A stretch of DNA of 64,000 nt, taken from contig JAJDEB010000036.1 of the NCBI GenBank assembly GCA_029260015.1, positions 62,001-126,000 of the forward strand, read 5' to 3'. The stretch is from Phycisphaerae bacterium (GTDB lineage: Bacteria; Planctomycetota; Phycisphaerae; UBA1845). The notes beneath the pieces are model-generated. The model was not told the origin of the DNA, did not search any database, and saw nothing but the letters and a program-made list of their open reading frames with translations. The first letter of the stretch is position 1. Every line of letters begins with the position of its first letter. A program made the position numbers and the translations under genes. Below, piece by piece: positions 9,164-43,535 of the stretch.

Positions 9164-9547
9164 ATGAGTTTCGAAGACAAGACCATCAGTTGTGTAGATT
9201 GTGGAACAGATTTCATTCACTCCGCTTCCGATCAAGAACGCTATGCCGAACGCGGATTCACCAACGAACCCAAGCGATGTCGTGATTGCCGCGAGAAGAG
9301 AAAAGCTCAAGGCGGCGGCGGTGGTGGTGGTGGCCGAGGCGGATACGGTGGCGGCGGTGGTGGATACGGCGGCGGTGGCGGCGGATATGGTGGCGGCGGC
9401 GGTGGTGGATATGGCGGCGGACGTTCGGAACGCGAAATGCACGAAGCCACCTGTTCGACATGCGGCGCACAGACCACGGTTCCATTCAAACCCACGGAAG
9501 GTCGCCCCGTCCTTTGTCGCGATTGCTTTCGATCGAGTCGCGACTAA
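9164..9547 (+). CDS. Double zinc-ribbon protein with Gly/Tyr-rich linker
   Basis: A 127-residue protein. I chose the ATG at 9164, which has CTGGAG six bases upstream; an in-frame ATG at 9131 lacks one. The N-terminal part (SCVDCGTDFIHSASDQE ... RCRDCREKRK) matches the probable zinc-ribbon family zf-trcl. The C-terminal part is a CxxC-x17-CxxC zinc domain (CSTCGAQTTVPFKP ... CRDC) with exactly 17 residues between the pairs. Between them lies a low-complexity linker of GG(Y)GGGG units. Proteins of this build are common in bacteria and are usually of unknown function; an RNA- or protein-binding role is inference from the glycine-rich linker. Confidence 0.88.
   Translation: MSFEDKTISCVDCGTDFIHSASDQERYAERGFTNEPKRCRDCREKRKAQGGGGGGGGRGGYGGGGGGYGGGGGGYGGGGGGGYGGGRSEREMHEATCSTCGAQTTVPFKPTEGRPVLCRDCFRSSRD
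9311..9423 (+). repeat. Gly/Tyr-rich low-complexity coding repeat
   Basis: This is a run of GGC/GGT/GGA codons broken by TAC/TAT, encoding about five GGYGGGG-type units inside the zinc-ribbon gene. Such tracts slip easily, so length variation between strains is likely. They also generate spurious open frames in other frames (poly-Pro, poly-Arg/Trp, poly-His). Confidence 0.8.
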
Positions 9548-26547: not shown

Positions 26548-27738
26548 TCAGACAACCAAGACCTCAGCCGCGATTTTTAGATCGGCGAGTTGCGACTCGA
26601 TTTCAGACTTGTAGATGGCGTTCATGATCAGGACCTTGTCCGGTCGCAAGTCCTTCAATTCGGACGGCTGGACGATTTGCTGCCCGGTTCCGGTGACGAA
26701 GCGCCCGTGCTTACGCGGATTCACATCCACGGCATGGGCAATGACATCAGACGGCGCGTTCATCACATTTAAGAAGGTGACGCCTTTACTTCCCGCACCC
26801 CAAATGACGGCTCGCGTCCCGGCGTTGGCCCATTCTGCAAACTGCTTTCTCCAATGGGCCACTTTCGACTCATAGGCCGAATTGAATTCGCTAACCAAAC
26901 GATCGGTTTCCGACAATGAAACCTCAGGTGAAATGGAACCTTCGAGATCAGTGGTCGCATCGATCGACAGAAACTGCCCATCATAGACACTGTCCACGCG
27001 AATCGGATGAAAGCCAGCGCGTCGAAACAACGCATCAAGCGCAGCCGGCGTGAAGTACAAGCAGTGCTCGTAAATCAAATCCCAAATGCCCAGGTGCTTC
27101 AACGTGTATAGAGCGTTGGGCACCTCGAAGTAAACGGCTGTCGTGCTGCCGCCTTTGATCGTGCCATGAACACTTCGAACGAATCCAAACGGTTCATTGA
27201 TATGTTCAAGCACATGACGACAACACACGAATTCCGCGTCGAATCCGCGATGCCTTGGGCCGTAATCCTCGGACCGAATCGTGACATTGGGATGCGACGG
27301 CGGCGGATCGTTTTCGGCATCAAAACTCGGGTCATACCCCACGCATTCGTTGCCACCCAGATCGGCCAGCAGTCGAAGAAAATCACCGCGACCGCAGCCG
27401 ATCTCGACGATGCGCTTTTCCTTGAGTTTAAAATCAGCAACCAATCGGTCAGCCAACTGTCCGCGATATTCTCGAAAACGCGGCGAACCATCGAGACTGT
27501 TTTCATACTGCGCGGAGTAAGCCATCTTACCGGGGTCAAACGCTGCATTAAAAACCAGATCGCAGTGCGAACAGTGGGCAAGCTTGATGGTTGCCCGATC
27601 GGTATTGAGGGCGTCTTCTCGCGAATCCCATAGCACGTTGCAAAAGACGGGCACGTTTTCGGCAATGAAGAATGTGCGGGCGCCATCCTGACCGCAACCG
27701 GGGCAGTCTTGCATACCGTTTTGTTCTTGAGTGGACAT
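26548..27738 (-). CDS. Zinc-binding class I SAM methyltransferase (sugar C-methyltransferase-like)
   Basis: A 396-residue cytoplasmic enzyme of the three-part sugar C-methyltransferase family. An N-terminal Cys4 zinc site is formed by CPGCGQ and CSHCDL. The central Rossmann fold has the SAM motif VEIGCGRGDF. The C-terminal nucleotide-binding-like domain contains VIWGAGSKGVTFL. The YEHCLYF segment corresponds to the YHEH catalytic region of TylC3/TcaB9-type enzymes, but the usual HGGSLR block is replaced by YDGQFLS. It is a close paralogue of the next gene, 48 bases away. The stop lies only 15 bases from the stop of the convergent beta-helix gene. The substrate is probably a nucleotide-linked keto-sugar (inference). 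Confidence 0.88.
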   Translation of the reverse strand: MSTQEQNGMQDCPGCGQDGARTFFIAENVPVFCNVLWDSREDALNTDRATIKLAHCSHCDLVFNAAFDPGKMAYSAQYENSLDGSPRFREYRGQLADRLVADFKLKEKRIVEIGCGRGDFLRLLADLGGNECVGYDPSFDAENDPPPSHPNVTIRSEDYGPRHRGFDAEFVCCRHVLEHINEPFGFVRSVHGTIKGGSTTAVYFEVPNALYTLKHLGIWDLIYEHCLYFTPAALDALFRRAGFHPIRVDSVYDGQFLSIDATTDLEGSISPEVSLSETDRLVSEFNSAYESKVAHWRKQFAEWANAGTRAVIWGAGSKGVTFLNVMNAPSDVIAHAVDVNPRKHGRFVTGTGQQIVQPSELKDLRPDKVLIMNAIYKSEIESQLADLKIAAEVLVV

Positions 27739-27786
27739 GAAAGACTCGCTGTCTTGAGCGCGGGATTGCGTTTGGTTCAGCGAAGC

Positions 27787-29019
27787 TTACACCGCGCAGA
27801 TCTTCGCCGCAACGCCCAGGCGATCCAGGTCAGCTTGGATCTCATCGCAATAGATCGGATTCATGACGATGACGTGGTCGGGTTTGTACTCTTGAAGCTT
27901 GTCGGGAGCAACGATTTCCTGTCCGGTAGATGGCATAAAATGACCCTGACGGTACGGGTTGATATCGACGACATATTCAATCGCATCACCAAGCGCAAGG
28001 GTTGAAAGGAATGACACGCCCTTGGAACCGCTGCCCCAGAGAACAACTTTCTCGTTGCGGCTGATCGCGTCATCGACGAACTTTCGCCAACCGAGGATCG
28101 ACTTCTCAACGATCGCGGGAAACGCCTCGACGCAGCGCGACATTTCATCAAGATCGTCTTCCGCAGCCAGGCTTGCTTCCGTCGCACCGTCAGAAGGTAT
28201 CGCCGTCAAGAGCAAGTACTGCTTGTCGTAGACAGCCTCCAACTCGGTAACCTCAAAACCGGTCTGTCGAAACAACCTTGCCAGCGACCCCAAGCTAAAA
28301 TAAGTGCAGTGCTCGTAGTAGATATCCCAAAACGCCCCTTCTTTCAACACGCGATAGACGTCGGGCAATTCAAAAAAGATCACGGTGTCTTTTCGATCGC
28401 CGATGGTCTTGCGAATCGACTGCATGAATTCAAGCGTCGGGGCGATGTGTTCCAATGTGTGGCGACAACAGATGAAGTCGGCCATCAGGTGAGCATATTT
28501 GGGACCGTAGAAATCCTGAATGAATTCGATTCGAGGCGCGACTTCCGGTGGGGTGCGCTGCGGAACGTAACCGGGATCGATACCGATTCCACGGTTGTTG
28601 GCCAACTGGCACAGCAGCACCAGAAACTCACCCTTGCCGCAACCGATTTCCAGAATCGTCTTGCCTTCAAGATCGTGTTTCTTGATGACGTCGGCTGCGA
28701 GTTCACGAGCAAACGCGTTGAACGTCGGCGAAAACCCTTGCGTCTCTTCGTAGGCGGTCGAGTATTCGTGAACGTCCGGGCGAAATTGCGTGTTGAAAAC
28801 AAAACCGCACTGCTCGCAAAAGCCCAGTTTCAAATCGCCCCGAGGATATTCGAGGGCGGCTTCCCGTGTGGGCATGAGCAGGCAACTGTGGACGGGAATA
28901 TCGCTGACTGAATAGAACGTGTGAATGCCAACCGACGCACAATTTGGGCATGCAAGATTGGGTTGGTGGCCGGTTTCAAAAGAAGCGGCTGTCTTGTTTT
29001 GCGTCAAACTGTTGGTCAT
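27787..29019 (-). CDS. Zinc-binding class I SAM methyltransferase (paralogue)
   Basis: A 410-residue protein started at the ATG at 29019; the open frame runs further upstream into the palindromic repeat and is not used. The build is the same as the 26.5 kb gene: zinc site CPNCAS/CEQCGF, SAM motif LEIGCGKGEF, YEHCTYF in place of YHEH, and VLWGSGSKGVSFL in the C-terminal domain. The two paralogues share AVYDxQxL where typical family members have HGGSLR, so they form a distinct subgroup together. Gene duplication within the operon is the simplest account. A sugar-nucleotide C-methylation role is likely from the neighbouring rfbF and epimerase. Confidence 0.88.
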   Translation of the reverse strand: MTNSLTQNKTAASFETGHQPNLACPNCASVGIHTFYSVSDIPVHSCLLMPTREAALEYPRGDLKLGFCEQCGFVFNTQFRPDVHEYSTAYEETQGFSPTFNAFARELAADVIKKHDLEGKTILEIGCGKGEFLVLLCQLANNRGIGIDPGYVPQRTPPEVAPRIEFIQDFYGPKYAHLMADFICCRHTLEHIAPTLEFMQSIRKTIGDRKDTVIFFELPDVYRVLKEGAFWDIYYEHCTYFSLGSLARLFRQTGFEVTELEAVYDKQYLLLTAIPSDGATEASLAAEDDLDEMSRCVEAFPAIVEKSILGWRKFVDDAISRNEKVVLWGSGSKGVSFLSTLALGDAIEYVVDINPYRQGHFMPSTGQEIVAPDKLQEYKPDHVIVMNPIYCDEIQADLDRLGVAAKICAV

Positions 29020-29051
29020 GGCTCGACTCGTTGTAATTGATTTGATCTGAG

Positions 29052-29126
29052 GTGCCACTGCTCTGTGAGCAGTGCTTTTTTTTCTAAGCCGTCTACTATT
29101 CTGCACTGCTCACAGAGCAGTGGCAC
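29052..29126. repeat. REPIN-like paired palindrome 2
   Basis: Two perfect inverted arms of 24 bp (29052-29075 and 29103-29126) are separated by 27 bp. Each arm folds on itself with the stem CACTGCTC/GAGCAGTG and a TGT loop. A run of T follows the left arm on the plus strand. The element lies between two methyltransferase genes of the same operon, where it may tune mRNA processing or read-through. Confidence 0.85.
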
Positions 29127-29140
29127 AGCTTACGTCCATA

Positions 29141-30454
29141 CTACGCTATATGCGGTTTGGGAATTGGGATGATGAACTGACCACCCTTGTCGCGGTACTC
29201 CTGCTGCTGCGACATGATTTCATCCTTGAAATTCCACGGCAAGATCACCACATAGTCGGGCATCTCTTTGGCGATCCGATCGGGATCGGGTATCGGCTGA
29301 TGCGTTCCGGGCATGAACAAACCCTGCTTATGCACGTTGCGATCGACGACATAATCGATCACGTCTGCGCCAGCACCAATGTAGTTAAGCATGATCGCGC
29401 CCTTGGCTGCCGCCCCGTATCCCGCGATGGTCTTGCCCTGAGCGCGAAGGTCTTTCAGAAGCGTTTGCATCTCGCCGCGAATCTCGCGAACGCGTTCACT
29501 GAAGTTCTTAAAATACGCGTAGCGATCCAGCCCCAATGCTTTCTCTTCCGAGAGCATTTCCAGAATCACCGGTGACGGGCGTTCATGTTTCTCAACATAC
29601 AAACGAAGCGAACCGCCATGAATCGACAACGTCTTCACGTCGTTGAGGTACAAACCGTTCTGTCGAAACAATGCATCGAGCGCACACACTGAGAAGTAGC
29701 ACAAGTGTTCATGGTAGATCGTGTCGAATTCGCCGTGCTCGATCAATTCGCGAACGTAAGGCACCTCGATGACAGCCACCCCGTCTTCTTTGAGCAACGT
29801 TCGCACTCCGCGAACAAAACCGTTGGTATCGGCGACATGGGCGAGAACATTGTTGGCGATGATGACGTCGGCTTGCTTGCCTTCGTCTGCCAACCGTTTG
29901 GCCAGGTCCTCGGTGAAGAAATCGCAGAGCGTCGAAACGCCGATTTCCTCAGCCGCCTTCGCCGGTCCGGGTGCAGGATCTATGCCCAAGACCTTGATGC
30001 CCTGCTCGACGAAGTTCTTCAACAAGTACCCATCATTGCTCGCCAGTTCCACGACGAGGCAATCCTGCTCACTAGAAAGGTTTCGCCGATCGACCAAATC
30101 GAGGGCGTTCTCGCGCGAGTGGGCTAAGAGCGCATCGGAGAACGACGAGAAGTACGGATAGTCGTGCCCGAACAGGACTTCCGGCGGAACCGTTTCGAGA
30201 ATCTGCACCAACGCACACTTGGAGCAAAACGCCAATTCCAATGGATAGGTGTGTTCCGATTCGGACAGTTGTTCTTCAGTAAGCAGACCGTCAGCCAGGG
30301 GCATCTTGCCGAGGTCGAGCACCGGTAAGAGCGCGGCCTCTCCACACGATCGGCAGGTGGCTGCGTCACAGCGTTTGGTGAATTCGTCCCAGGATTGCGG
30401 TGCCACGAGATGACTCCCGTCGGTTAGTGTTGCAGTTCGATCCATCGTACTCAA
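29141..30454 (-). CDS. Sugar C-methyltransferase (NovU/TylC3-like class I SAM methyltransferase)
   Basis: A 437-residue enzyme with an N-terminal zinc site (CRSCGE, CSKCAL), SAM-binding VELASNDGYLL and the full catalytic signature YHEHLCYFS followed by HGGSLRLY. It is therefore nearer the characterised TylC3/NovU/TcaB9 group than its two neighbours. Those enzymes add a methyl group from SAM at C3 or C5 of a nucleotide-linked 4-keto-6-deoxy sugar. The C-terminal part has AGYGAAAKGAIML. It sits between the paired palindrome and the epimerase gene and probably belongs to the same transcript. Confidence 0.92.
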   Translation of the reverse strand: MSTMDRTATLTDGSHLVAPQSWDEFTKRCDAATCRSCGEAALLPVLDLGKMPLADGLLTEEQLSESEHTYPLELAFCSKCALVQILETVPPEVLFGHDYPYFSSFSDALLAHSRENALDLVDRRNLSSEQDCLVVELASNDGYLLKNFVEQGIKVLGIDPAPGPAKAAEEIGVSTLCDFFTEDLAKRLADEGKQADVIIANNVLAHVADTNGFVRGVRTLLKEDGVAVIEVPYVRELIEHGEFDTIYHEHLCYFSVCALDALFRQNGLYLNDVKTLSIHGGSLRLYVEKHERPSPVILEMLSEEKALGLDRYAYFKNFSERVREIRGEMQTLLKDLRAQGKTIAGYGAAAKGAIMLNYIGAGADVIDYVVDRNVHKQGLFMPGTHQPIPDPDRIAKEMPDYVVILPWNFKDEIMSQQQEYRDKGGQFIIPIPKPHIA

Positions 30455-30496: not shown

Positions 30497-31552
30497 CTAC
30501 TTATTTGCGGGCGCGGCTTGCTCTGCAAACCGCAAGTTCTTATCAAGTTCACCGCTGGCGATGAGGCTGCGAATGTATCCGATGCGCTGGTACTTGGAAC
30601 CTTCAAACTCTTCAAGCGTTACACTGTGCTTGGTATACGCCTGATAGCATTCTTCGACACCTTTGCGAGCCGTCCACTGCGGTACGAAATCGCTGAGTTC
30701 GTTGGCAATCAAATCGCAATTCACGCGATAGTTGCGGGCATCAGGCGAAGCACCATCTGCAAACGCCACCTCGCAGTTAGGTACGATCTCGCCAACAAGA
30801 TTGGCAATGTCGCGGACGCGCAGATTCTCATCCGTCCGGCCAACGTTAAACGCGCGGTTGTGGATCTTCTCACGCGGTGCCTTCAAAACGGCAAGGAACG
30901 CACGCGAAATGTCCTCAATATGAACGATGGGGCGCCAAGGGCTGCCGTCGCTTTTCATCATGACTTTGCCGGTCGTCACCGCCCATGCCGTCAGGTTGTT
31001 GACCACCAGATCAAAACGAAGACGCGGCGACACACCATATGCTGTCGCATTGCGCAAGAATACTGGTGAAAATGAACCGTCGGCTAGCGGCGAAACGTCG
31101 CGCTCAACGAACACCTTCGACTCACCATACGGCGTCACGGGGTTGAACCGCGAATCCTCATCCAGCATGTCATCACCACCCGCACCGTAATTGCTGCACG
31201 ATGACGAGAAGATGAACCGCCCCACGCCGGCTTGCTTACAGAGCTCGGCCAAACGCACGGAAGCGCGGTGGTTGATTTCAAATGTCAGATCGGGATTCAA
31301 ATCGCCCAATGGATCGTTGGACAGACCGGCAAGGTGACACACCGCGTCGAAGCCCTCAACATCGGAGAGTTCGACATCGCGCACGTCTTTGATGATCGTC
31401 GGCACGTCGGGGATATCCGCACCAAACGTACAGTGCCGATACAGGTCGCTATCGAGCCCGACCACTTCCATGCCTTCCTTCAACAACATCGGGGTCAAGA
31501 CCGTTCCGATGTATCCGAGATTTCCTGTGACCAATACTCGCATGTCGCTCAT
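30497..31552 (-). CDS. NAD-dependent epimerase/dehydratase (extended SDR)
   Basis: A 351-residue enzyme with the Rossmann motif GNLGYIG near the N terminus, the active-site serine region FSSSCSNYG and the catalytic Tyr-x3-Lys in YGESK. The start is fixed by an ATGA overlap with the stop of rfbF (31549-31552). With a glucose-1-phosphate cytidylyltransferase upstream and C-methyltransferases downstream, it likely dehydrates, epimerises or reduces a CDP-linked hexose. I cannot tell which. A clear separate CDP-glucose 4,6-dehydratase is not present in the window. Confidence 0.92.
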   Translation of the reverse strand: MSDMRVLVTGNLGYIGTVLTPMLLKEGMEVVGLDSDLYRHCTFGADIPDVPTIIKDVRDVELSDVEGFDAVCHLAGLSNDPLGDLNPDLTFEINHRASVRLAELCKQAGVGRFIFSSSCSNYGAGGDDMLDEDSRFNPVTPYGESKVFVERDVSPLADGSFSPVFLRNATAYGVSPRLRFDLVVNNLTAWAVTTGKVMMKSDGSPWRPIVHIEDISRAFLAVLKAPREKIHNRAFNVGRTDENLRVRDIANLVGEIVPNCEVAFADGASPDARNYRVNCDLIANELSDFVPQWTARKGVEECYQAYTKHSVTLEEFEGSKYQRIGYIRSLIASGELDKNLRFAEQAAPANK

Positions 31553-32334
31553 TCCCATGTCTTCCAGGGTGCTTTCCCCGATTCCCAAAGCTCTTCCAAT
31601 AGCTTCTTATCGCGCAGCGTATCCATACACTGCCAAAATGAATTGTGCCGGTAGGCCATCAACTGGCCTTCGTTGGCGAGGCGCTCCATCGGTTCATGTT
31701 CCCACTGGGTCGCATCGCCCTCAATGTAATCAAAGATAGCCGGTTCAAGAACGAAGAACGCCCCGTTGATCCAACCTTCTGCCGTCTGCGGTTTTTCCGA
31801 AAACTCCACCACGCGATCGCCGTCGAATTCCAAATGTCCGAAGCGCGCGGTCGGACGAACGGCTGTCACCGTCGCCAGTTTGCCATGTGACTGATGAAAC
31901 GCCAACAGCTTGTCGAGGTCCACATCGGAAACGCCGTCACCCCATGTCAGCATGAACGTTTCGTTGCCGATGAAGGGGGCCAACCTTTTGATGCGTCCGC
32001 CCGTCAGCGTATCGCGACCCGTGTCCACCAGATCGACTTTCCAATCCAGTTTGTCTTTACCGTGCTGCTCGACGTCGCCGGTCTTTAGGTCAACCGTCAG
32101 GTGCGATTGCAGCGACGCGTAGTCCATCATGTATTTCTTGATGTATTCGCCCTTATAACCCAGGGCGATGGCAAACTGCTTGTGACCGAACTGCGCGTAG
32201 TGGCGCATGATGTGCATGATGATCGGTGTTCCACCGACCTCCACCATCGGTTTGGGTTTGATCTCGGTTTCTTCAGCCAGGCGCGTTCCCACACCACCTG
32301 CGAGAATTGCAACTTTCAAGAGACGCTCCTTCAA
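31549..32334 (-). CDS. rfbF: Glucose-1-phosphate cytidylyltransferase
   Basis: A 261-residue nucleotidyltransferase that makes CDP-glucose from CTP and glucose 1-phosphate. It has the N-terminal signature LAGGVGTRLAEETEIKPKPM, the metal-binding LTWGDGVSDVDL and a family-typical end (FWQCMDTLRDKKLLEELW). Length matches the family. It opens the sugar-nucleotide operon and overlaps the epimerase gene by ATGA. CDP-glucose is the usual precursor of 3,6-dideoxy and branched deoxy sugars in surface polysaccharides. Confidence 0.96.
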   Translation of the reverse strand: MKERLLKVAILAGGVGTRLAEETEIKPKPMVEVGGTPIIMHIMRHYAQFGHKQFAIALGYKGEYIKKYMMDYASLQSHLTVDLKTGDVEQHGKDKLDWKVDLVDTGRDTLTGGRIKRLAPFIGNETFMLTWGDGVSDVDLDKLLAFHQSHGKLATVTAVRPTARFGHLEFDGDRVVEFSEKPQTAEGWINGAFFVLEPAIFDYIEGDATQWEHEPMERLANEGQLMAYRHNSFWQCMDTLRDKKLLEELWESGKAPWKTWE

Positions 32335-32472: not shown

Positions 32473-35400
32473 TCACGGACATGTGATCGCGGTAGGACCG
32501 GTAAAGGCCGTCTGGAATACTGCCCAGTCGAATAAGTCTATATCACCATCGGCATCGCTGTCGAATGGCTCCTGACAGGGTAGCGTGGCATCGAATCCAG
32601 CACCACTGACACACGCGGCGAATTCGCCCAAATCGTCGAGATCGATGTCGCCATCGCGGTCGAAATCGAACAGCCCATCGCACGGATCGCCGAATCCATC
32701 TTCGTCGCCGTCATTTTGCAACGGATTCGCCACCGATGGGCAGTTGTCTTCACCATCGCACACGCCATCGCTGTCGCAGTCTTCAAGCGTTCCGGCACAC
32801 TTTCCAGAAGCACACGATTCGTCAAACGTGCAATCGATACCGTCGTTACACACTTGACCTTCATTGGCTGGAACCGCTTCGCATTCGCCGGTTGAACCAT
32901 TGCAGGCACCGACGTTGCACTGATCATCCAAACCGGAGCAGTCTGCTGGCGTACCGGCGCACGATCCGCTGACGCACTCGTCGCCATCAGTACACTGGTC
33001 ACCGTCATTGCAGGATGTGCCATCGTCGGCGAGTTGGGCAACGCACTGCCCCGTTCCCCCGTCGCACATACCCGTCTGACACATGCCATCGAGCGAACTG
33101 CAATCGACAAGCGATCCCTCGCAGAGGCCACCAGCGCAGGCATCGTTTTCCGTGCAGAGGTCGCCGTCATCACACCCACCGGCTTCATTCACTGCGACCT
33201 GTTCGCAGAAACCGGTCGAAGTGACGCACACCCCGAGGTTGCAGGCGTCGTCAAGTCCGGAGCAATCCACGAAGGTACCTTCGCACAGACCGATGCTGCA
33301 TGTGTCGTTGGTCGTACACAAGTCACCGTCGCTGCAACCACCGCCTTCATTGGCACTCACCGATTCGCAAACACCCGTCGATGGATTGCACGCGCCGATC
33401 AGGCACTGATCATCCAACGATGAACAATCGACTGAACTTCCGACACAAACGCCATTGGTGCAAGCATCCAACGTCGTGCAGAGATCGCCGTCATCACACC
33501 CACCGCCGTCATTGGCCGGCGCTATTTCACATTGACCGGTGCCTGCATTGCATGCGCCAACGTTGCACGCATCGCTCAAGCCCGAGCAATCCTGCACAGC
33601 CCCCTCGCACACACCGTTCGTGCAAGCATCGAGTATCGTACACAGGTCGCCGTCATCGCAGGTGTTGCCTTCGTTGATCGGCTGGGCTTCACATTCACCG
33701 GTAGTTCCGTTACACGCACCCGCCGTACACGCACCGTCTAATGGCGAACAATCTTTTGGCGTTCCAGCGCAGATGCCGCTGGCGCAGGAGTCGTTTTCCG
33801 TACATGGATCAAGATCGTCGCACGAACCGCCCTCGTTCGCCGGAGTTGCATCGCAGGTGCCGAGCGATTCATTGCATGTACCCACATTGCATGCGTCGTC
33901 CAGACCGGAACAGTCAAGCGGTTCGGATTCGCAAACGCCATTGGTACAGGCATCGTTAACCGTACAGTTGACGCCGTCATCGCAGGCGCCGCCCTCGTTG
34001 GCGGGTAATGATTCGCAAGAACCCGTTGATGGGTTACAAGCCCCGACCACGCAGGTGTCGTCCAATCCGCTGCAATCGACCACCGCCCCAACGCACACAC
34101 CATTCGTACACGCATCGGTGATCGTACACAGATCGCCATCGTCGCACAGTCCGCCTTCATTGACCGAAACGGCTTCGCAAGCACCTGTCGATGGGTTGCA
34201 TGTCCCCGCGAGGCAATCGTCGTCTAGTGAAGAGCAATCGACCGTTGACCCCGCACAAGTACCACCGGCGCATGTGTCGTCAACGGTGCAAAGGTCGCCA
34301 TCGTCGCAGCCGAGTCCTTCGTTGATCGAGGCGGCTTCGCACGCTCCGGTTGACGGATTGCACACGCCTGTCGAGCATTCGCCGTCTAGCAACGTACAAT
34401 CGACGCTCACGCCTTCGCAAACACCATTGGTGCAGAAGTCGCTGACGGTACACAAATCGCCATCGTCGCAAAGCAGCCCTTCGTTGGCTGGCAGTGCTTC
34501 GCATTCACCCGTCGAACCGTTGCAAACACCAACCGTGCAAGGCCCATCGAGCGACGAACAGTCTTTAGCCACACCAGTACACGTTCCATTCGTGCAGGCA
34601 TCGTTGATCGTACAGAGATCAAGATCGTCGCATGTTTCGCTTTCATTGGCCGGCGACGATTCGCAAGTACCAAAGCCTTCGTTACAAGTACCAACATTGC
34701 AGGCGTCATCCAACCCCGAACAATCAACAGTATCCGCGAGGCACAATCCGTTTGAACAGGCGTCACCAGTCGTACAATTGACGCCATCATCGCACGCCCC
34801 ACCTTCGTTGGCGGGTGCTGTTTCGCACGTACCGGTGCCTGGATTGCACACACCCACAATGCAGGAATCGTCCAAGCCGGTGCAATCGATCGCAACCGCG
34901 CTACACACGCCATTCGAACAAGCGTCATTAGCCGTGCAGTTGTTTCCATCGTCGCATGCCACGCCCTCGTTGGCAGGTAGTGTTTCACATTGCCCAGTAT
35001 CCGAGTTGCAAACACCAGTCAGACAGGCATCGTCCAGTCCGGAGCAGTCCACTGCATCGGTGATGCATAATCCATTTGAACAAGCGTCGCCCGTTGTGCA
35101 GTTGTCGCCATCGTCACATGAATTGCCCTCGTTCGCGGGGGCTGTTTCGCATACGCCGGAACCAGGATTGCAAACACCGGCCAGGCACGCGTCATCAAGA
35201 CCTGAACAATCGACCGCCTGCGCATTGCAGACACCGCCCGAGCATGTGTCGTTTGTCGTACACAAATCGCCATCGTCGCAGCCGCCGCCATCATTGACCG
35301 GAACGGCTTCGCAGAGTCCGGTTGAAGCATTGCAGGCACCGACGTTGCAGTCATCATCTAACCCGGAGCAATCAACGCCATCACCAAGGCACACACCATT

Positions 35401-38397
35401 GGAGCAGGCGTCACCGATCGAACAAAGGTCGCCATCGCTGCAAGCTTGTCCTTCACTTGCCGCACTGACTTCACACAAACCGCTGCCTGGGTTGCAGACG
35501 CCAACGGTGCATTCACCGTCCAAACCCGTGCAATCCGTCGCCACTCCTGCACACACACCGTTCGTGCAGAAATCGCTAACCGTACAGAGGTCGCCATCAT
35601 CACAAAGGGCGTCTTCATTGGCTGGCAGAGCTTCGCAATCGCCCGTCGTCGCGTTGCACACGCCAACCGTGCATTCGCTATTAAGTCCGGTGCAGTTTTT
35701 CGTCGTCCCGACACAAACCCCATCCGAACACGAATCGTTGACCATGCACGGATCGCCGTCATCACATGCACTGCCATTGTTCGCCGGCTGCGACTCGCAC
35801 ACTCCGGTTGACGGGTTGCAGACCCCCACCGTGCAATCGCTGTCGAGTCCGCTGCAATCAACACTGGCACAAAGATCACCGCCGTCTTCCGGGTCGATCG
35901 GAGTAGCTAGGTTGAACACATAGTCGATGATCGCAGTGTATCCAGGTGAGTCGATACCGGAGAATGAATCGTTTCCAGCATAAACGCCGACGGCCGTCAC
36001 ATTAATCTGCGTCGTAAATGCTGCGCCAGTCGTCCAATTTTGGCCATCGTCAGTCGAGTACTCAAACGTCCAGAAGTCGCCGGTACGATGAAGTCTTGCC
36101 TTGGTCGGTCCAGACGTTCCGATCGTTAAAAAGGCCTGTGACGCCCCAGATCCGCCAATGACCGACTCGACATAAATCAGCATCTGACCGCCATTGCTGA
36201 GAATATCGAAGTACACGTAATTGTTGGCGTCTTGCTCGGCAACAATCCCGTGAGTTTGAAACTGCTGTGTCACCAATGATTCAAAACTGACTTCCATCTC
36301 GAAATCGGCGTTCGCAACGTTTTGCATGATGCGCGGAGAAAGTCGAGTGCCTCCGCCAAACATCGAATGAAGGATCCCCGCTTCCACCGTGATTTCGGCC
36401 TGCGTACCGGTCATATTCAAACTGCTGTTACCGGTCGGATTGACAAACGTCCAGATGTTCGTGTTGAGCGACCCACTGCTGAAATCATCCGACACCAAAC
36501 CGGACGACACGCCAGCCGTCGTCATGAATACAGCGTCAATCGTCTCAGTCGAATTCGCAAACGCATCCGCCGACGTGATCTGATAGTGGTATGTCGTTTC
36601 GGGCGTAAGGTTCGCCAGATTGATCGTGTGATTGATGACCTGACTCGGGTTGCTCACCGAACCATTTTCATACGCCGCAGTCGGCCCGTAAGCAACGCTT
36701 GAGTCGGCTTGCTCATCAGTCGTCCAGGTCACCTGCGCGCTTGTCGCACCAGACGCCACCTGCACATTGCTGATCACCGGACCATTGGTGTCGATATTGT
36801 CCGTAAAGACAGCAGTCACATTCATGTCACCGCTAACGGTCAACTGTTTCGGATTGGCAGTACCGTTCAGATCGCCCTGCCAGTTGACGAACACCCAACC
36901 GTTGTCAGGCACGGCCTCCACGTCTACGACGTCATTGTCCAGATATGCCGGTTGATCCGGTGTTAGAGTGATTGATCCATTGCCCGACGTGTTCGTGGTA
37001 ATGGTGCGCGGTCCAAGCGTCGTGAATGTAAAGTCTCCGCTCGATACCGACTCCAATGCCGCAGTTTCGCTGCTCGCTTGAATGTGGTAGAGCGTGTCCG
37101 GTTGTAGGTTGTTTAGCGTGATGTTATGTGTGCTGACGAATGACGGGTTACTCTCGGTGCCCAATTCGTAACCCGCAGTTGTTCCATATGCCACCGAACT
37201 ATCGGAAAGCTGATTAGTCGACCAGGACACCTGCGCCGAAGTCTGCGACGGGATCACCTGCAAATTGGAGATTGCCAAGGTCGAACCCGCTCCCAATGGC
37301 ACCACAGAAACATCGCCAAAGGTCGCATCAACATGATGCGGGATGAGCAGCACGCAACCGTTCTGAAGATCGTTGAACCCTTCGAAACCGCTCAGCAACC
37401 AGCCCTGTGGTTCTGGTTGACCAAACTCCCAAACCTTCCCCGCGTAAAATGTGGAACCGTCGGGCTGACTTTCGCATCGGAATTTCCAGAAATAAGTAGT
37501 GCCCAAAACGAGCTTCAGTCCGGACTGGTCAGATTGGATCGTACCAGCATCTCCGTGGAGCCCGTATCTCCCATTGCTATCAGAGAAGTCATACCAGAAG
37601 CTCGCCCCCATTGGCAGATAGCCGATGTTCGGCTGACGCCCTTGCCAGTCGCTGTGACCCTGCCAACGCATCACGATGCCAATACCCGGACCGATACTTG
37701 GGAAACCGAGATCGAGTTCATCGTGAGCAAAAACGGTAATCGGTACGGTGATCTCATAATCGGTCCAACCCAGATCACCTACGGCAATAATTCGGTCGTA
37801 TCCCCATTCAAGAATGCGCGCGCCGTTAGACGTGTAATCCCATAAACCGTCAACAACTTGAACCACATCGGTCAATTCCGAAACATTGTCCCAGTCAATG
37901 TTGTAAGGGAGTGGCCAAGTATTTTGCGGGGTGTAGTCCAACGAAACCGTGACGGTCGTCGTGTTGCCCTGCGAATCTTCAGCCGTGATGTCAATGATGT
38001 TGATGCCCGCATTCAGATTGTTGCGGTTGATGTCAATGTTGAAGTCGCCATCATTCTGAAGCCGAAACGTGTCCGGTCCGATCGACAGCGGAATATCAGA
38101 TCCGTCGTTAATCGTGTAGGACAGTGAATCGACAAAGGTGTCGTCTGAAACCTGACCGAGAATGTTGTAGATTTTCTGCGGAACACCGGGAGCGCCATAA
38201 TTTTGGAAGAGTCCTTCCCAGACGTCAATTTCCGGGTCACCAGGGGCGGCCAACACCGTTGCGGGAATCGCTGCACTACTCAGAATAGCAATGAGGGACC
38301 AAACAAAACGGCACGCAACACCACCCCGCGGCGCATTCCGTCGGCGCGTACGCTTCCTGAAGAATCCCTTTGCGGATGAACGATCGACCCACCCCAT
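32473..38397 (-). CDS. Giant secreted multidomain protein with nineteen 8-Cys repeats
   Basis: A protein of 1974 residues. A long basic N terminus (FRKRTRRRNAPRGG) precedes signal peptide FVWSLIAILSSAAIPATVLAA. Then, in order: an unassigned beta-rich region (about 52-365); a fibronectin-III-like domain (370-460); an InlB-type bacterial repeat (461-535; TTNTSGNGSITL, NWQGDLNGT); a second fibronectin-like domain (536-630); a concanavalin-like DUF1349-type domain (635-835); nineteen 54-residue eight-cysteine units (846-1871); a short DxDxDG segment; and two dockerin-like calcium loops (FDRDGDIDLDDL, SDADGDIDLFDW). It must be exported and disulfide-rich. An adhesive or structural role in the surface layer is inference. 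It separates the sugar operon from the glycosyltransferase operon. Confidence 0.9.
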   Translation of the reverse strand: MGWVDRSSAKGFFRKRTRRRNAPRGGVACRFVWSLIAILSSAAIPATVLAAPGDPEIDVWEGLFQNYGAPGVPQKIYNILGQVSDDTFVDSLSYTINDGSDIPLSIGPDTFRLQNDGDFNIDINRNNLNAGINIIDITAEDSQGNTTTVTVSLDYTPQNTWPLPYNIDWDNVSELTDVVQVVDGLWDYTSNGARILEWGYDRIIAVGDLGWTDYEITVPITVFAHDELDLGFPSIGPGIGIVMRWQGHSDWQGRQPNIGYLPMGASFWYDFSDSNGRYGLHGDAGTIQSDQSGLKLVLGTTYFWKFRCESQPDGSTFYAGKVWEFGQPEPQGWLLSGFEGFNDLQNGCVLLIPHHVDATFGDVSVVPLGAGSTLAISNLQVIPSQTSAQVSWSTNQLSDSSVAYGTTAGYELGTESNPSFVSTHNITLNNLQPDTLYHIQASSETAALESVSSGDFTFTTLGPRTITTNTSGNGSITLTPDQPAYLDNDVVDVEAVPDNGWVFVNWQGDLNGTANPKQLTVSGDMNVTAVFTDNIDTNGPVISNVQVASGATSAQVTWTTDEQADSSVAYGPTAAYENGSVSNPSQVINHTINLANLTPETTYHYQITSADAFANSTETIDAVFMTTAGVSSGLVSDDFSSGSLNTNIWTFVNPTGNSSLNMTGTQAEITVEAGILHSMFGGGTRLSPRIMQNVANADFEMEVSFESLVTQQFQTHGIVAEQDANNYVYFDILSNGGQMLIYVESVIGGSGASQAFLTIGTSGPTKARLHRTGDFWTFEYSTDDGQNWTTGAAFTTQINVTAVGVYAGNDSFSGIDSPGYTAIIDYVFNLATPIDPEDGGDLCASVDCSGLDSDCTVGVCNPSTGVCESQPANNGSACDDGDPCMVNDSCSDGVCVGTTKNCTGLNSECTVGVCNATTGDCEALPANEDALCDDGDLCTVSDFCTNGVCAGVATDCTGLDGECTVGVCNPGSGLCEVSAASEGQACSDGDLCSIGDACSNGVCLGDGVDCSGLDDDCNVGACNASTGLCEAVPVNDGGGCDDGDLCTTNDTCSGGVCNAQAVDCSGLDDACLAGVCNPGSGVCETAPANEGNSCDDGDNCTTGDACSNGLCITDAVDCSGLDDACLTGVCNSDTGQCETLPANEGVACDDGNNCTANDACSNGVCSAVAIDCTGLDDSCIVGVCNPGTGTCETAPANEGGACDDGVNCTTGDACSNGLCLADTVDCSGLDDACNVGTCNEGFGTCESSPANESETCDDLDLCTINDACTNGTCTGVAKDCSSLDGPCTVGVCNGSTGECEALPANEGLLCDDGDLCTVSDFCTNGVCEGVSVDCTLLDGECSTGVCNPSTGACEAASINEGLGCDDGDLCTVDDTCAGGTCAGSTVDCSSLDDDCLAGTCNPSTGACEAVSVNEGGLCDDGDLCTITDACTNGVCVGAVVDCSGLDDTCVVGACNPSTGSCESLPANEGGACDDGVNCTVNDACTNGVCESEPLDCSGLDDACNVGTCNESLGTCDATPANEGGSCDDLDPCTENDSCASGICAGTPKDCSPLDGACTAGACNGTTGECEAQPINEGNTCDDGDLCTILDACTNGVCEGAVQDCSGLSDACNVGACNAGTGQCEIAPANDGGGCDDGDLCTTLDACTNGVCVGSSVDCSSLDDQCLIGACNPSTGVCESVSANEGGGCSDGDLCTTNDTCSIGLCEGTFVDCSGLDDACNLGVCVTSTGFCEQVAVNEAGGCDDGDLCTENDACAGGLCEGSLVDCSSLDGMCQTGMCDGGTGQCVAQLADDGTSCNDGDQCTDGDECVSGSCAGTPADCSGLDDQCNVGACNGSTGECEAVPANEGQVCNDGIDCTFDESCASGKCAGTLEDCDSDGVCDGEDNCPSVANPLQNDGDEDGFGDPCDGLFDFDRDGDIDLDDLGEFAACVSGAGFDATLPCQEPFDSDADGDIDLFDWAVFQTAFTGPTAITCP
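32785..35862 (-). repeat. Nineteen tandem 162-bp / 54-residue Cys-rich coding repeats
   Basis: Read on the minus strand, units start at 35862 and recur every 162 bp to 32785 with no length change. Each has eight cysteines at unit positions 3, 10, 15, 22, 33, 39, 45 and 50. The pattern is VDCSGLDDxCxxGxC ... GxCE ... ANEGxxCDDGDLCT ... DxCxNGVC. The codon bias leaves a long open frame on the opposite strand that is not a gene. Confidence 0.95.
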
Positions 38398-38842: not shown

Positions 38843-39679
38843 TCAAACATTGCGAACGGAAAATATCTCGATGTCCTGGGTACACGCAGCCACCCACGCA
38901 CCGTCGGACACATCGCTGAGGATTGGCCATTCGCAATTCGGCATGAGGCGTTGGACCTGAGACTCATGAGCTGCAAGGGCGGCTAGTTTCTGATCGCGCT
39001 CGCTGGAGATATCGACGCAGACGTTGAATTCGCGGTACATCCGCATCGGTCTGAGAACAGCATTGGCGACAGCTCGAATGGGCGATCGCACGATTCGCTT
39101 GTCCGGTCGCACCCAAGGCCAATGGTGCCAGAACCACACGGCATACTCGACGATGCGCGGCGTTTGCTTGAGAGTGTTCAAAGCGTCCATGACAAATTGA
39201 TAGGTGGCCAAGTGATCATCAGGACCGTCGTACCGCGAAGGAACGTAAACTTCTTCTGGGCACAAACGCGCGAGGATGTCGCGAACTTGCTCGGTGCCTT
39301 CATCACGATGCTCATTAAGCTTTCCATCTGGAAGGTCGAATATCGACACGCGATCTGCAGCGACACCGAGAACTCTCGCCGCATTCAGCGCTTCCGTTTC
39401 GCGCAGCGCGATCAGATCGCTGACCTCCATCATACCGGCATGCGATCGACGACCATTGGTCATGAACACAATGTCAACATCTGCACCGTGTGCGATCTTC
39501 TTAATGATGGTTCCGCCACACCCCAAGACTTCATCATCTTGATGCGGCGCGAATACGATTGCTCTTTTTGAATATTCAGGTAATTCCGGACGCCTGCGCA
39601 TGATCGAGTGCAACCGCTTACGACGGCGACGCGCAAAGAATCCCGTCGGTGCACAATGATCAATCGCTGATGAGTTCAT
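38843..39679 (-). CDS. PIG-L family deacetylase
   Basis: A 278-residue LmbE/PIG-L type zinc hydrolase that removes acetyl groups from N-acetylglucosamine-like sugars. The N-terminal metal motif reads APHQDDEVLGCGG (His46, Asp48, Asp49), with Gln in place of the usual Pro. A second conserved block is YVPSRYDGPDDHLATY. The start codon lies within the end of the glycosyltransferase gene (20-base overlap). In this context it probably de-N-acetylates a sugar of the polysaccharide or its lipid-linked precursor (inference). Confidence 0.92.
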   Translation of the reverse strand: MNSSAIDHCAPTGFFARRRRKRLHSIMRRRPELPEYSKRAIVFAPHQDDEVLGCGGTIIKKIAHGADVDIVFMTNGRRSHAGMMEVSDLIALRETEALNAARVLGVAADRVSIFDLPDGKLNEHRDEGTEQVRDILARLCPEEVYVPSRYDGPDDHLATYQFVMDALNTLKQTPRIVEYAVWFWHHWPWVRPDKRIVRSPIRAVANAVLRPMRMYREFNVCVDISSERDQKLAALAAHESQVQRLMPNCEWPILSDVSDGAWVAACTQDIEIFSVRNV

Positions 39680-40907
39680 CGTATCGTTTGTCTATCGTCG
39701 TCGCGATTTGGTCCCAAGAGAACTGCTTAAGAACGCGAGACCGGCCCGCCGCCCCCATTGCCTTGCGCTTCGTCGCGTCCTCAAGAACCTCACACACCCC
39801 GACGGCCAATGCCTTCGGATCATCCGGGGCCACCAGCAACCCGGTTTCGCCCGGTTGCACGATTTCGGTCATGCCACCAATCCTAGCCGCCACGACCGGC
39901 GTTTCGCAGGCCATCGCCTCGACCAGGCTCATGCCAAATGCCTCGCTCAGTGACGGATTGACCAGCACGTCAGCCGACCGATATCGCTCGACCAATTCCG
40001 CCTGAGGCAATCCCCCAATGAAATTGACGCGACCGGCTGCCTCGGCTGAACACCCCTCCCGCAACTGTTGTCCGTAATCGCCCTCATAAAATCGGGCCAG
40101 CGCTCTGACCCGATCGTCATCGCTCAGTCCGATGATAAACTCGATCGGTGCGGAACCCTCCGGGCCAACAACGTCCAATAAAGCATTCGGCACACGACGG
40201 GCGATTTCATTAAACGCTTCGATCAAAACATGAACGCCCTTCTCAGGAGACAAGCGACCGACGAACAAGATGCGTTGGACTTCAGAAGTATCCGGTGTGG
40301 TGGTGATCGGCTGGGCTGAGAACGTTTCAGTGTTGACGCCATTGTAAACACAATGGCACTTGTGCGCATGCTGCGGCTGCTTCTGGACAATTCGATCGAC
40401 GACATATTGACTGCACGCGTAAACCGCGTCGATATGGGACAGCGTCTTCGTTACCCACTCGGTGTCCAGTTGCGACAACCACTCGCAATGCATGTGTACG
40501 CAAATCTTCGCCTTGGGTAATGCCCGACGAATGATTGGCGCATATTGGGCGAAGTTATGGATGTGGACGATGTCTACAGGGTGAGCCTTCAGCGAGTCAG
40601 CCACCTGCCGGATATACGATCGATAATAAAGTCGCGACGCGAAGAATGGTTTACGATCCGACCAGATACCCGGAATCCGTCGAAGCAGTTTGTGTGCCAA
40701 AGGATCGGTGTCGGTTGCGATTCGCCGAAGCGTCAGGTTATCGGTTGACTGCGTGACCGACTGCTTCGAGCCGCGACGGGCATAGATATCAATGTGATTC
40801 CTTTGAGGCAGGCGGCTGGCGACTTCGTAAGTCCATATGGGAAGTGAACCCGATAAAGCGGAAAGGTCCATTGTGTCCCAGGGATGGTTGATGAAGGCGA
40901 CCGTCAT
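39660..40907 (-). CDS. Glycosyltransferase family 4 (GT-B)
   Basis: A 415-residue retaining glycosyltransferase. The C-terminal donor-binding half holds FVGRLSPEKGVHVLIEAF, the E-x7-E motif EAFGMSLVE and a GGMTEIVQPGETGLLV loop. The N-terminal half has a basic patch (RRGSKQ, LRRI) typical of membrane-associated acceptors. Its ATG overlaps the stop of the family 2 glycosyltransferase by ATGA, and its end overlaps the PIG-L gene, so the three are translated as a unit. Confidence 0.93.
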   Translation of the reverse strand: MTVAFINHPWDTMDLSALSGSLPIWTYEVASRLPQRNHIDIYARRGSKQSVTQSTDNLTLRRIATDTDPLAHKLLRRIPGIWSDRKPFFASRLYYRSYIRQVADSLKAHPVDIVHIHNFAQYAPIIRRALPKAKICVHMHCEWLSQLDTEWVTKTLSHIDAVYACSQYVVDRIVQKQPQHAHKCHCVYNGVNTETFSAQPITTTPDTSEVQRILFVGRLSPEKGVHVLIEAFNEIARRVPNALLDVVGPEGSAPIEFIIGLSDDDRVRALARFYEGDYGQQLREGCSAEAAGRVNFIGGLPQAELVERYRSADVLVNPSLSEAFGMSLVEAMACETPVVAARIGGMTEIVQPGETGLLVAPDDPKALAVGVCEVLEDATKRKAMGAAGRSRVLKQFSWDQIATTIDKRYDELISD

Positions 40908-41905
40908 CGGTCGGTCGGTCCTCCGCCGGAAGTTGAATGCGATACTGCGGAAGGCGGTTTCTGCAGATTCAGCTTGCGGCGTCTGCGTCCTTTCCAGGCG
41001 CCAACCAGATCGCGAACAAACTTACGCCGATAAGAAAGCGCCGATCGGATCAGATGCATCTGGCATCTAAAACGCTGCCATAATGATGTCGGGGTTCCGC
41101 CGATGGCGCGGAAGTATTCCCAGAACATCCGCCACGTCGGAAATACCATTCGCCCGGTTCGCTTCGTATCAAACCAGTCCGAGTAATCATAACGATCCTT
41201 CATCGCCTTCATCGATTGGGCGGCGTGTTCTCTTGGGAAAAACAACTCTTCGGGCACTTCATGAAAGCGTCCAAACAGCGCCACCCGCGCGAGCAGCACA
41301 CCGTCACCGTGCGGATAGTTCCCGATCAACTCGGTGTTGTTGAGGACACTCATTCGATAAAGCCCAAACACTTCGTAACACTTATACCCAACGTGTCCGC
41401 GAACCACTTCGCCATATCGGACATGCGCTTCGGGCGAATCGGTCTTTAACCTGATCGGATAGGGATCCTGCTTCTCACCCTGGTCATTGATGACCCGCGG
41501 CTTGGGACAGACCAATACCGCCGATGAATCACTATCAAGGACGTCAACGCAGGATTGCAGAAACTCGGGCGCGCACAAATCATCATGGGCCGCCCATTTG
41601 AAGTATGCTCCATCTGCCAACTGAACGGTCCGATTAAAATTCCACGCTGCACCGTGGTTGATGTCGGTCCGGTAGTAGCGAATGCGCGAATCCTGTTCGG
41701 CATACCGGCGGCAGATTTGCATGGTCGAATCAGTCGAACCGTTATCGGAAATAATGATTTCAAAATCAGAAAAGGTCTGACCCAGTAGCGAGTCGAGGCA
41801 CAGTGCAAGGTAACGCTCGCCGTTGTAGACCGGCACACCGACGCTAACTTTGGGGGTGTGGTGACCCTTCCCCGTTTTTGAATCAACTGAATTGGCTGGA
41901 GACAT
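40904..41905 (-). CDS. Glycosyltransferase family 2 (GT-A)
   Basis: A 333-residue glycosyltransferase opening with the GT-A signature VSVGVPVYNGERYLALCLDSLL, then IIISDNGSTDST, and a metal-site region AHDDLCAPEFL. The tail is basic (WKGRRRRKLN), suggesting contact with the membrane. It is coupled downstream to the family 4 enzyme by ATGA. The sugar specificity cannot be read from the sequence. Confidence 0.93.
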   Translation of the reverse strand: MSPANSVDSKTGKGHHTPKVSVGVPVYNGERYLALCLDSLLGQTFSDFEIIISDNGSTDSTMQICRRYAEQDSRIRYYRTDINHGAAWNFNRTVQLADGAYFKWAAHDDLCAPEFLQSCVDVLDSDSSAVLVCPKPRVINDQGEKQDPYPIRLKTDSPEAHVRYGEVVRGHVGYKCYEVFGLYRMSVLNNTELIGNYPHGDGVLLARVALFGRFHEVPEELFFPREHAAQSMKAMKDRYDYSDWFDTKRTGRMVFPTWRMFWEYFRAIGGTPTSLWQRFRCQMHLIRSALSYRRKFVRDLVGAWKGRRRRKLNLQKPPSAVSHSTSGGGPTDR

Positions 41906-41955: not shown

Positions 41956-43068
41956 TCAAGACCCCATGACTTCACGAATCGCCTGAGACATACGCTTCTG
42001 CGTCACTTCCCAGGTGAATTCCCTCGCGACGCGTTCGCGCGCCCGACACCCCATCATAGCGCAAAGTTTGGAATTCGCGACTAATTTTTCCAGCGCCCCT
42101 GCCAGAGCGGTAATGTCAAACGGCTCTACCAGGAACCCGGTTACTCCGTTTTCGACCAAGTCGCGCGGCGCACCAAGGTTCAAAGCGACGACCGGTAACC
42201 CCGCGTTCATCGCCTCCAGATACACCAACCCGAACGGTTCGCGGAGGCTGGGCATACAAAAGCAGCACGCCTCGGCCATGAGTTCCCCCACCCGTTCAAG
42301 CGGTACGACGCCAAGGACTTCGACGCCCGGTTGGGCAATATCGGGCTCACATCCAACTATGATCAGGCGCGCGTCGGGCTGCGTTTCTCTGACGCGGGCA
42401 AAGGCCTCGACCAGTTGCGGACCGCCCTTTCGTTCCCAATCGAAACCGACAAATAGAATACTCTTGGAAGGTTCCACATCGTCCGAATCGATGACGGACT
42501 TTCGGGCATTGAAACCCGCCCCGACACATCGGACTCGATCCGCGGGGACGTTGTAAAATTCGATCAGCGAATCGCTGACATGCGTGCTCATCGTAAAGAT
42601 AAGCGCCGCGTCTTCAATCAGCGCCCGTTCAGCTGGCAGCCAGTCTTCCCATCGTTTGATCGCGACATCGCCATCGGGATAGTAATGATTGGTTAGAATG
42701 GCATGGTCTGTATAAATGAAATTGGGTTTGCCCGTCGGCGGAATCGGAAAGAGGGTTTGAAACGTCAGCGTACAGTCGAACGTATGACGATCACAGGTCT
42801 TGCGAATCTCATTTTCAAGCCGAGTCAGGTTTGACCGTGAACGAAGGGCAATCTGCCGATAACTGCGCCGTGCTTCGTTGATGCCCATTGAAGCACTGGC
42901 TTTGACGAGCTCGGGCAGCGCTTTGAGTTTGTCCGCAACGTTTTCGAAGTACCCCTCATCCAAATCGCGGCGCGTGATAACGTCGTCGGGCGAGCCTGCT
43001 TCCCAAGCATCGAGCAAAGACCCCGAAATGCCCGAAAACAATCCACGTTGAAGTGCGAGAATCTGCAT
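41956..43068 (-). CDS. Glycosyltransferase family 1/4 (GT-B)
   Basis: A 370-residue enzyme, started at the ATG at 43068 (MQILALQRGLFSGISG); a further ATG lies at 43095. The C-terminal half contains ILFVGFDWERKGGPQLVEAF, E-x7-E motif EPFGLVYLE and GVTGFLVEPFD. The N-terminal half is more distinctive, with FIYTDHAILTNHYYPDGD and FTMSTHVSDSLIEFYNVP. It is the first gene of the glycosyltransferase group and is divergent from the large lipoprotein gene at 43.5 kb. Confidence 0.92.
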   Translation of the reverse strand: MQILALQRGLFSGISGSLLDAWEAGSPDDVITRRDLDEGYFENVADKLKALPELVKASASMGINEARRSYRQIALRSRSNLTRLENEIRKTCDRHTFDCTLTFQTLFPIPPTGKPNFIYTDHAILTNHYYPDGDVAIKRWEDWLPAERALIEDAALIFTMSTHVSDSLIEFYNVPADRVRCVGAGFNARKSVIDSDDVEPSKSILFVGFDWERKGGPQLVEAFARVRETQPDARLIIVGCEPDIAQPGVEVLGVVPLERVGELMAEACCFCMPSLREPFGLVYLEAMNAGLPVVALNLGAPRDLVENGVTGFLVEPFDITALAGALEKLVANSKLCAMMGCRARERVAREFTWEVTQKRMSQAIREVMGS

Positions 43069-43535
43069 AACCGTTGTTCTTGCCACCATTCCCAAAACAG
43101 CAACGAATATCCAAACGTTGCGTCAAACAATCAACCACCACCCATGTTTTTGACGGGGAACGTCAGTCTGAACATGAGATGAAAACGCTGACTTAAATCA
43201 AGTTTAACCGGAATCCTAGCACCGTGCCTTAACCTTGTTTAAAGGGAGAATTCTTTCTTTTTCGGCCCCAGAATTTGGGGTGAAATACTTCCGAAATCGC
43301 AAAGTCAGATACCCCCACGGTTTATTGGTCGCTCGACCGCAATCGGCATTTTTTGCCGGTGATTATCGCTGGTTACCCCCCATGAACTGATCCGATGGGT
43401 TCCTGCCTGCGGCGTGACTCTTGCCCCGTTCACCCAGCGAATTGTAGGTTCCAAGAAGTATTGGGGGAAAGAGTCTCGCCAAGCTGTACCCAGCGCGAAC
43501 CATCGCGCCACCAAGAGGCACATTAGGAGCAAAAT
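43069..43535. other. Divergent intergenic region with two small hairpins
   Basis: About 467 bases between the minus-strand glycosyltransferase gene and the plus-strand lipoprotein gene. It must hold both promoters. Two adjacent perfect short hairpins are visible, GGTCG-CT-CGACC at 43327-43338 and CGGCA-TTTTT-TGCCG at 43344-43358, plus CCCCA/TGGGG near 43267-43281. No known RNA family was recognised. Confidence 0.4.

Follow-up and report, generated by a model that had tools for sequence, protein, structure and literature searches.

The window analysed here, a 64,000-nucleotide stretch of a Phycisphaerae bacterium genome, encodes a secreted protein with 19 consecutive 54-residue units, each carrying eight cysteines at fixed positions. 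The units are confidently predicted to fold as small antiparallel β-hairpins, and their only significant structural match in the PDB is the cysteine-rich chain of an amoebal adhesion lectin. With about even credence, we read the array as the stalk of a secreted surface protein encoded in a glycan cluster: a stiff, very acidic, disulfide-laddered spacer that gains or loses length in whole units.

Organization of the array protein

The protein consists of the following parts (positions are those of the window).

32473..38397, minus strand: whole gene, 1974 residues; signal peptide, N-terminal β domains, cysteine array and TSP3/dockerin-like tail; full orthologs in four congeners
38245..38397, minus strand: signal peptide (residues about 1–51); Arg-rich n-region, hydrophobic core and A-x-A at a TVLA/AP cleavage site, read by eye
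35863..38244, minus strand: N-terminal part (residues 52–845); fn3 (375–448), InlB-B-repeat (465–534), purple-acid-phosphatase-N/fn3 (545–612) and a DUF1349/GH43_C2-like concanavalin-type sandwich (636–807)
35869..35871, minus strand: cap cysteine C843, which precedes the first unit cysteine by five residues; same spacing in all five orthologs of the genus
32785..35862, minus strand: cysteine array (residues 846–1871); 19 units of 54 residues with eight cysteines each
32476..32784, minus strand: C-terminal 103 residues; thrombospondin type 3-like Ca2+ motif and, after it, two EF-hand loops in a dockerin-like pair

The first-pass annotation had described 19 exact 54-residue, eight-cysteine units, and its coordinates and counts are right to the residue. 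Cysteines occupy positions 3, 10, 15 and 22 (half A) and 33, 39, 45 and 50 (half B) in 19 of 19 consecutive units, giving 152 cysteines with zero exceptions, and an independent regular-expression scan recovered the same 19 units. Thirteen columns are invariant, namely the eight cysteines, Leu6, Gly13, Gly20, Asp35 and Gly48; Asp43 is nearly invariant. Eighteen identical period-54 steps, each with eight fixed cysteines, are far beyond chance. As the earlier description also stated, two other giant proteins of the window (23125–26532 and 43536–48299, both plus strand) contain broadly similar modules that are shorter and irregular. These two proteins share a β-helix-type domain, N-terminal in one and C-terminal in the other, together with the cysteine modules, a case of domain permutation. 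Elsewhere in the window, Tandem Repeats Finder reported a glycine-rich coding repeat with GGC/GGT runs (9310–9420).

The hydropathy maximum of the protein lies at residues 34–51, within the signal peptide, and there is no other hydrophobic segment. The Pfam matches in the N-terminal part are PF16656 (E = 2.1e-14), PF18998 (E = 5e-12), PF00041 (E = 1.1e-7) and PF07081 (E = 2.2e-7, just below the cut-off). The C-terminal tail matches COMP (PDB 3fby) in a phmmer search with an E-value of 1.9e-6. Similar dockerin-like double EF-hand C-terminal tails are found at about 100 places in the same genome, and they are perhaps sorting or anchoring tags. A cellulosome finds no counterpart here: the genome has 33 Dockerin_1 matches and no match to Cohesin (PF00963), and the tail itself has no Pfam dockerin match.

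Age and integrity of the array

The units are well diverged from one another. Pairwise identity averages 57.6% for amino acids and 59.2% for nucleotides (maxima of 76% and 72%, respectively), third codon positions are 40% identical, and codon identity at same-residue pairs (0.463) is close to the expectation from codon usage (0.434). The longest exact repeated DNA word in the array is 23 nt, and Tandem Repeats Finder made no call on it. Intact arrays that agree on the unit occur in five separate assemblies of the genus. The units are thus old, and neither a recent nor a collapsed repeat. An assembly artefact, named in the first-pass annotation as a finding that would overturn the array, is very unlikely given this divergence, the 23-nt longest exact repeat and the five intact assemblies; recent expansion was rejected on the first two of these grounds. 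A block duplication at an offset of five, in which units 7–9 resemble units 12–14, is modestly supported (32 of 2000 permutations), and the units are too short for a tree to split most of its forks.

Unit number among relatives

The orthologs in the four congeners, one of which is Phycisphaerales bacterium UBA1845 (L070, on a contig of G001), contain 16, 12, 13 and 16 units, compared to 19 in the window protein. Units of varied length had been proposed as evidence against the regular array; none other than 54 residues was found in the four congeners, and across the five species 76 of 76 units have this length and all eight cysteines, with zero indels at about 57% identity between units. The same comparison weakens the earlier argument that strict control of unit length points to a rod. 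The flanking parts are equally indel-poor among congeners, as the N-terminal part varies by at most two residues (843–845) and the C-terminal part always has 103; constancy of unit length by itself therefore argues only weakly for a rod. Related modules of other proteins and taxa have units of about 45 to 64 residues, a descriptive range taken from overlapping frames. The special feature of the array is constancy between paralogous units that are only 57% identical.

Outside the genus, the same protein is found with few units or none. A relative from another genus (G053, L155) has exactly one 54-residue unit (VDCSHLD...RGTY) between the same N- and C-terminal parts, and a further relative (G010, L151) has the same two parts with no unit between them. 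Other families of the order (G335, G339) have the N-terminal domains in reading frames that lack such units. The array is thus dispensable for the protein family, and the presence of zero or one unit in other genera and of array-free frames in other families indicates lineage-specific insertion and expansion. This agrees with the earlier suggestion of a special expansion, with 12–19 units in this genus. The result is a natural length series of 0, 1, 12, 13, 16, 16 and 19 units. The G339 locus (L163, G339:C10) encodes an N-terminal protein of 2483 residues with a repeated and permuted fn3/DUF1349 block, beside epimerase and methyltransferase genes.

Unit-by-unit alignment places units 11–19 collinear with three congeners, with differences around units 1–6 and 9–10. 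Unit 7 of G004 is an in-register chimera: its first 32 residues resemble unit 9 (84–91%) and its last 22 residues resemble unit 7 of G001, the ortholog of unit 10 (86%). Read from the sequence, such a junction is what recombination between repeats would leave, with the period kept.

Among 298 genomes of the class, 27 have matches to the units, and 24 of these belong to the family of the window genome. Across 84,980 species, a scan yielded 74 loci, most of them in Phycisphaerae and Myxococcota. Two records among these loci carry titles that look wrong: "Alphaproteobacteria IP29b_bin.190" (L068), which is a congener of the window genome, and a metagenome-assembled genome labelled Klebsiella pneumoniae with such an array (L097). 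Other repeat types also adjoin the cysteine modules. Another secreted protein of the window genome (L015, G000:C40) has, adjacent to them, about 20 short repeats in tandem of the type KHNSGSTWHVNGQSFIPPGS, and the C-terminal half of a 1906-residue frame (L052) has, after them, about seven copies of a second repeat of about 39 residues with a CC pair and further cysteines.

Predicted fold and structural match

AlphaFold2 models of three units calculated from 17 alignment rows were unstable, with pLDDT values of 36–87 for the five models. A four-unit model calculated from 80 rows, drawn from the window and related loci, reached a pLDDT of 96.0 (94.7–96.0 for the five models; pTM 0.59), with the same two-hairpin pattern in every unit, and was used for the fold search in place of the three-unit model. 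The five best Foldseek matches in the PDB are all the Entamoeba Gal/GalNAc lectin heavy chain (HgL), with E-values from 3.1e-5 to 5.8e-3 and a probability of up to 0.99; the next match has an E-value of 0.29. A viral structure library gave no credible match. The TM-scores to HgL are about 0.2, as would be expected between elongated chains that curve differently, and we therefore claim only the local fold, a chain of consecutive four-cysteine β pseudo-domains. With this pTM and low TM-scores, straight, curved and flexible arrangements of the units would all be compatible with the model.

The HgL heavy chain contains pseudo-domains of 20–35 residues with four cysteines, of which the first and fourth are paired internally and the second and third are bonded to neighbours (PMC12948311). 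The predicted array resembles the cysteine-rich arc and arm of the Entamoeba histolytica protein (PDB 9gjf, 9gjc and 9gjg; PMC12948311), the sole significant PDB match, in being a chain of small antiparallel β pseudo-domains with four cysteines each. However, the HgL pseudo-domains are irregular, with about seven in the arc, whereas the array has 38 halves in strict alternation and a cysteine pairing that we infer. HgL is absent from an hmmsearch of the PDB with the unit profile at an E-value of 1. As no sequence similarity was detected, the array is better said to work like HgL than to be a member of its family. A regular disulfide rod, as first suggested, is thus still the best reading, on the strength of a confident and consistent model whose sole solved match is a disulfide-linked chain, and not of the constancy of unit length.

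Disulfide connectivity

If the halves are bonded to their neighbours, the array needs one extra cysteine before it and one after it. Cys843 precedes the first unit, and the one-unit relative (L155) has an extra cysteine on both sides of its unit; the zero-unit relative (L151) has neither. Among related arrays, exactly one extra cysteine stands in front at 41 of 55 classifiable starts, 34 of them with a spacing of 5–6. L052, L102 and L076/L078 have lost both the first and the fourth cysteine of a half, and rare single losses affect the third cysteine in first halves (L060, L085) and the second cysteine in last halves such as that of L118. These cases come only from an anchored count and from hand-checked examples, as flexible regular expressions and Viterbi parsing misregistered in Myxococcota proteins. 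The cap cysteine and the joint loss of cysteines 1 and 4 would fit pairing of the HgL type, with the direction of the neighbour links ambiguous; the single losses at the ends of arrays would be in keeping with links opposite in direction to those of HgL. The genome also encodes a VKOR–DsbA fusion of 497 residues with both domains in one frame (G000:C5:8404–9894; L156, 405–1895, minus strand), which is likely a disulfide-forming enzyme for the cysteine-rich secreted proteins.

In the stalk reading, each 54-residue unit would consist of two consecutive four-cysteine β-hairpin half-units. Neighbouring half-units, and hence neighbouring units, would be joined by disulfides into one continuous ladder, capped by one cysteine on either side of the array, Cys843 in front and probably Cys1880 behind.

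Glycan gene cluster

The array gene lies on one strand with a set of genes for glycan biosynthesis, a context that the first-pass annotation did not mention.

41956..43095, minus strand: glycosyltransferase, family 4 type, first of the conserved cluster (PF00534, E = 1.5e-31; synteny)
40904..41905, minus strand: glycosyltransferase family 2 (PF00535, E = 1.4e-30; synteny)
39660..40907, minus strand: glycosyltransferase family 4 (PF00534, E = 1.5e-40; synteny)
38843..39679, minus strand: PIG-L type sugar de-N-acetylase, directly upstream of the array gene (PF02585, E = 6.1e-29)
31549..32334, minus strand: glucose-1-phosphate cytidylyltransferase (RfbF-like), directly downstream (TIGR02623, 359.8 bits, cut-off 300.25)
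30497..31588, minus strand: NAD-dependent nucleotide-sugar epimerase/dehydratase (PF01370, E = 1.2e-41)
26548..30454, minus strand: three sugar C-methyltransferase-type genes (PF08484/PF13489 in each)

The glycosyltransferases and the PIG-L enzyme are thus upstream, and the cytidylyltransferase, epimerase and C-methyltransferases downstream. Gene order with the glycosyltransferases is conserved, all on the same strand, in the four congeners, which places the array gene within a glycan biosynthesis cluster: nine of nine checked neighbours are in order in L068, L070 and L071, and in L067 as far as the contig reaches. Parts of the neighbourhood are kept elsewhere: the epimerase and a methyltransferase in the other genus (G053), and PIG-L upstream, a glycosyltransferase and methyltransferases in another family (G335).

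Comparison with known families and alternative readings

Sequence searches against Pfam and NCBIfam profiles and the PDB placed the units in no known repeat family. No Pfam or NCBIfam match to the Myxococcus cysteine-rich repeat or DUF4215 was found at E-values up to 1 over the whole protein. The CTDC proteins (EcmA/EcmB, PF00526) contain arrays of short cysteine-rich repeats. Such arrays in secreted proteins are what the window protein shares with them; the CTDC repeat model, however, stays below the cut-off, with a best E-value of 0.15 in two of 17 members, searched as triplets. The family and its matrix role are known from Dictyostelium (PMC4931340). Clear sequence similarity links the array to the irregular cysteine modules of giant proteins in Phycisphaerae and Myxococcota (P0002 and P0003 in the window; L051/L069 and L076–L082), which have the two-half module and its motifs in common with it. 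These modules have mixed lengths (about 45–64 residues) and interspersed types, in contrast to the strict 54-residue repetition. Searches of the open-licence literature turned up no publication about such repeats in Phycisphaerae. The repeat kind is widespread and uncovered by the profile libraries searched, and its strict long form and zero/one/many series are new as far as our searches reach.

Tandem EGF-like modules, as in fibrillin and Notch, are likewise extended, disulfide-rich extracellular spacers with two hairpins per unit. By analogy, each 54-residue unit could be autonomous, with four internal disulfides, in a flexible or semi-flexible chain of beads on a string. The even number of cysteines per unit suits such an arrangement, fibrillin is the sole PDB sequence match to the unit profile below an E-value of 1 (E = 0.055), and the fold searches returned weak EGF, Notch and Jagged matches. 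However, the eight cysteines have other spacings than those of EGF modules, no EGF model is among the Pfam matches even at E-values up to 10, HgL alone reaches significance among the fold matches, and an odd cap cysteine is conserved before the array and absent when there are no units. We consider autonomous units rather unlikely. Neutral repeat growth or an artefact without function, which the variation from 12 to 19 units between species and the zero or one unit in other genera might suggest, is already disfavoured and very improbable, considering the complete conservation of length and cysteines in diverged units, the agreement of five assemblies and the short longest exact repeat.

The composition and the gene neighbourhood raise two further readings, each of which we hold to be improbable. 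The array might mainly bind Ca2+ or other cations and stiffen or swell the coat, with spacing secondary: the mature protein has a pI of 4.05, the array contains 13.1% Asp, 5.0% Glu, 0.4% Lys and no Arg, Asp35 is invariant and Asp43 nearly so, and a Ca2+-type tail adjoins. Yet no known Ca2+-binding consensus matches within the array, Cys and Gly figure more among its invariant positions than acidic residues do, and the whole mature protein shares its acidity. It might also be the acceptor for the sugar made by the neighbouring glycosyltransferases, as in S-layer or adhesin glycosylation clusters, a role consistent with its many Ser, Thr and Asn residues and with its conserved neighbours, namely three glycosyltransferases, a deacetylase, a CDP-glucose synthase and C-methyltransferases. 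The G335 ortholog, however, sits beside such genes without a cysteine array; the cluster therefore does not need the array.

Implications

As a laddered stalk, the array would separate the N-terminal β-sandwich domains, probably glycan-binding, from the Ca2+-dependent TSP3/dockerin-like tail, and its length would change as whole units are gained or lost in register. The protein most likely acts within the glycan coat or by way of it; its surface location and glycan binding are suggested by the domain types and the gene context. More tentatively, the array may represent an uncatalogued bacterial fold class of long, self-capping disulfide ladders of four-cysteine half-units, like the arc of the amoebal adhesion lectin, used as a stalk whose length can evolve and which is linked to a glycan locus. 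The structural match between a bacterial repeat and an amoebal lectin arc raises the question of convergence or transfer. Such repeats are abundant in giant proteins of Phycisphaerae and Myxococcota but lack a model in both Pfam and NCBIfam, and the series from 0 to 19 units offers a testbed for the disulfide ladder, for the role of stalk length and for its link to the cell-surface glycan.
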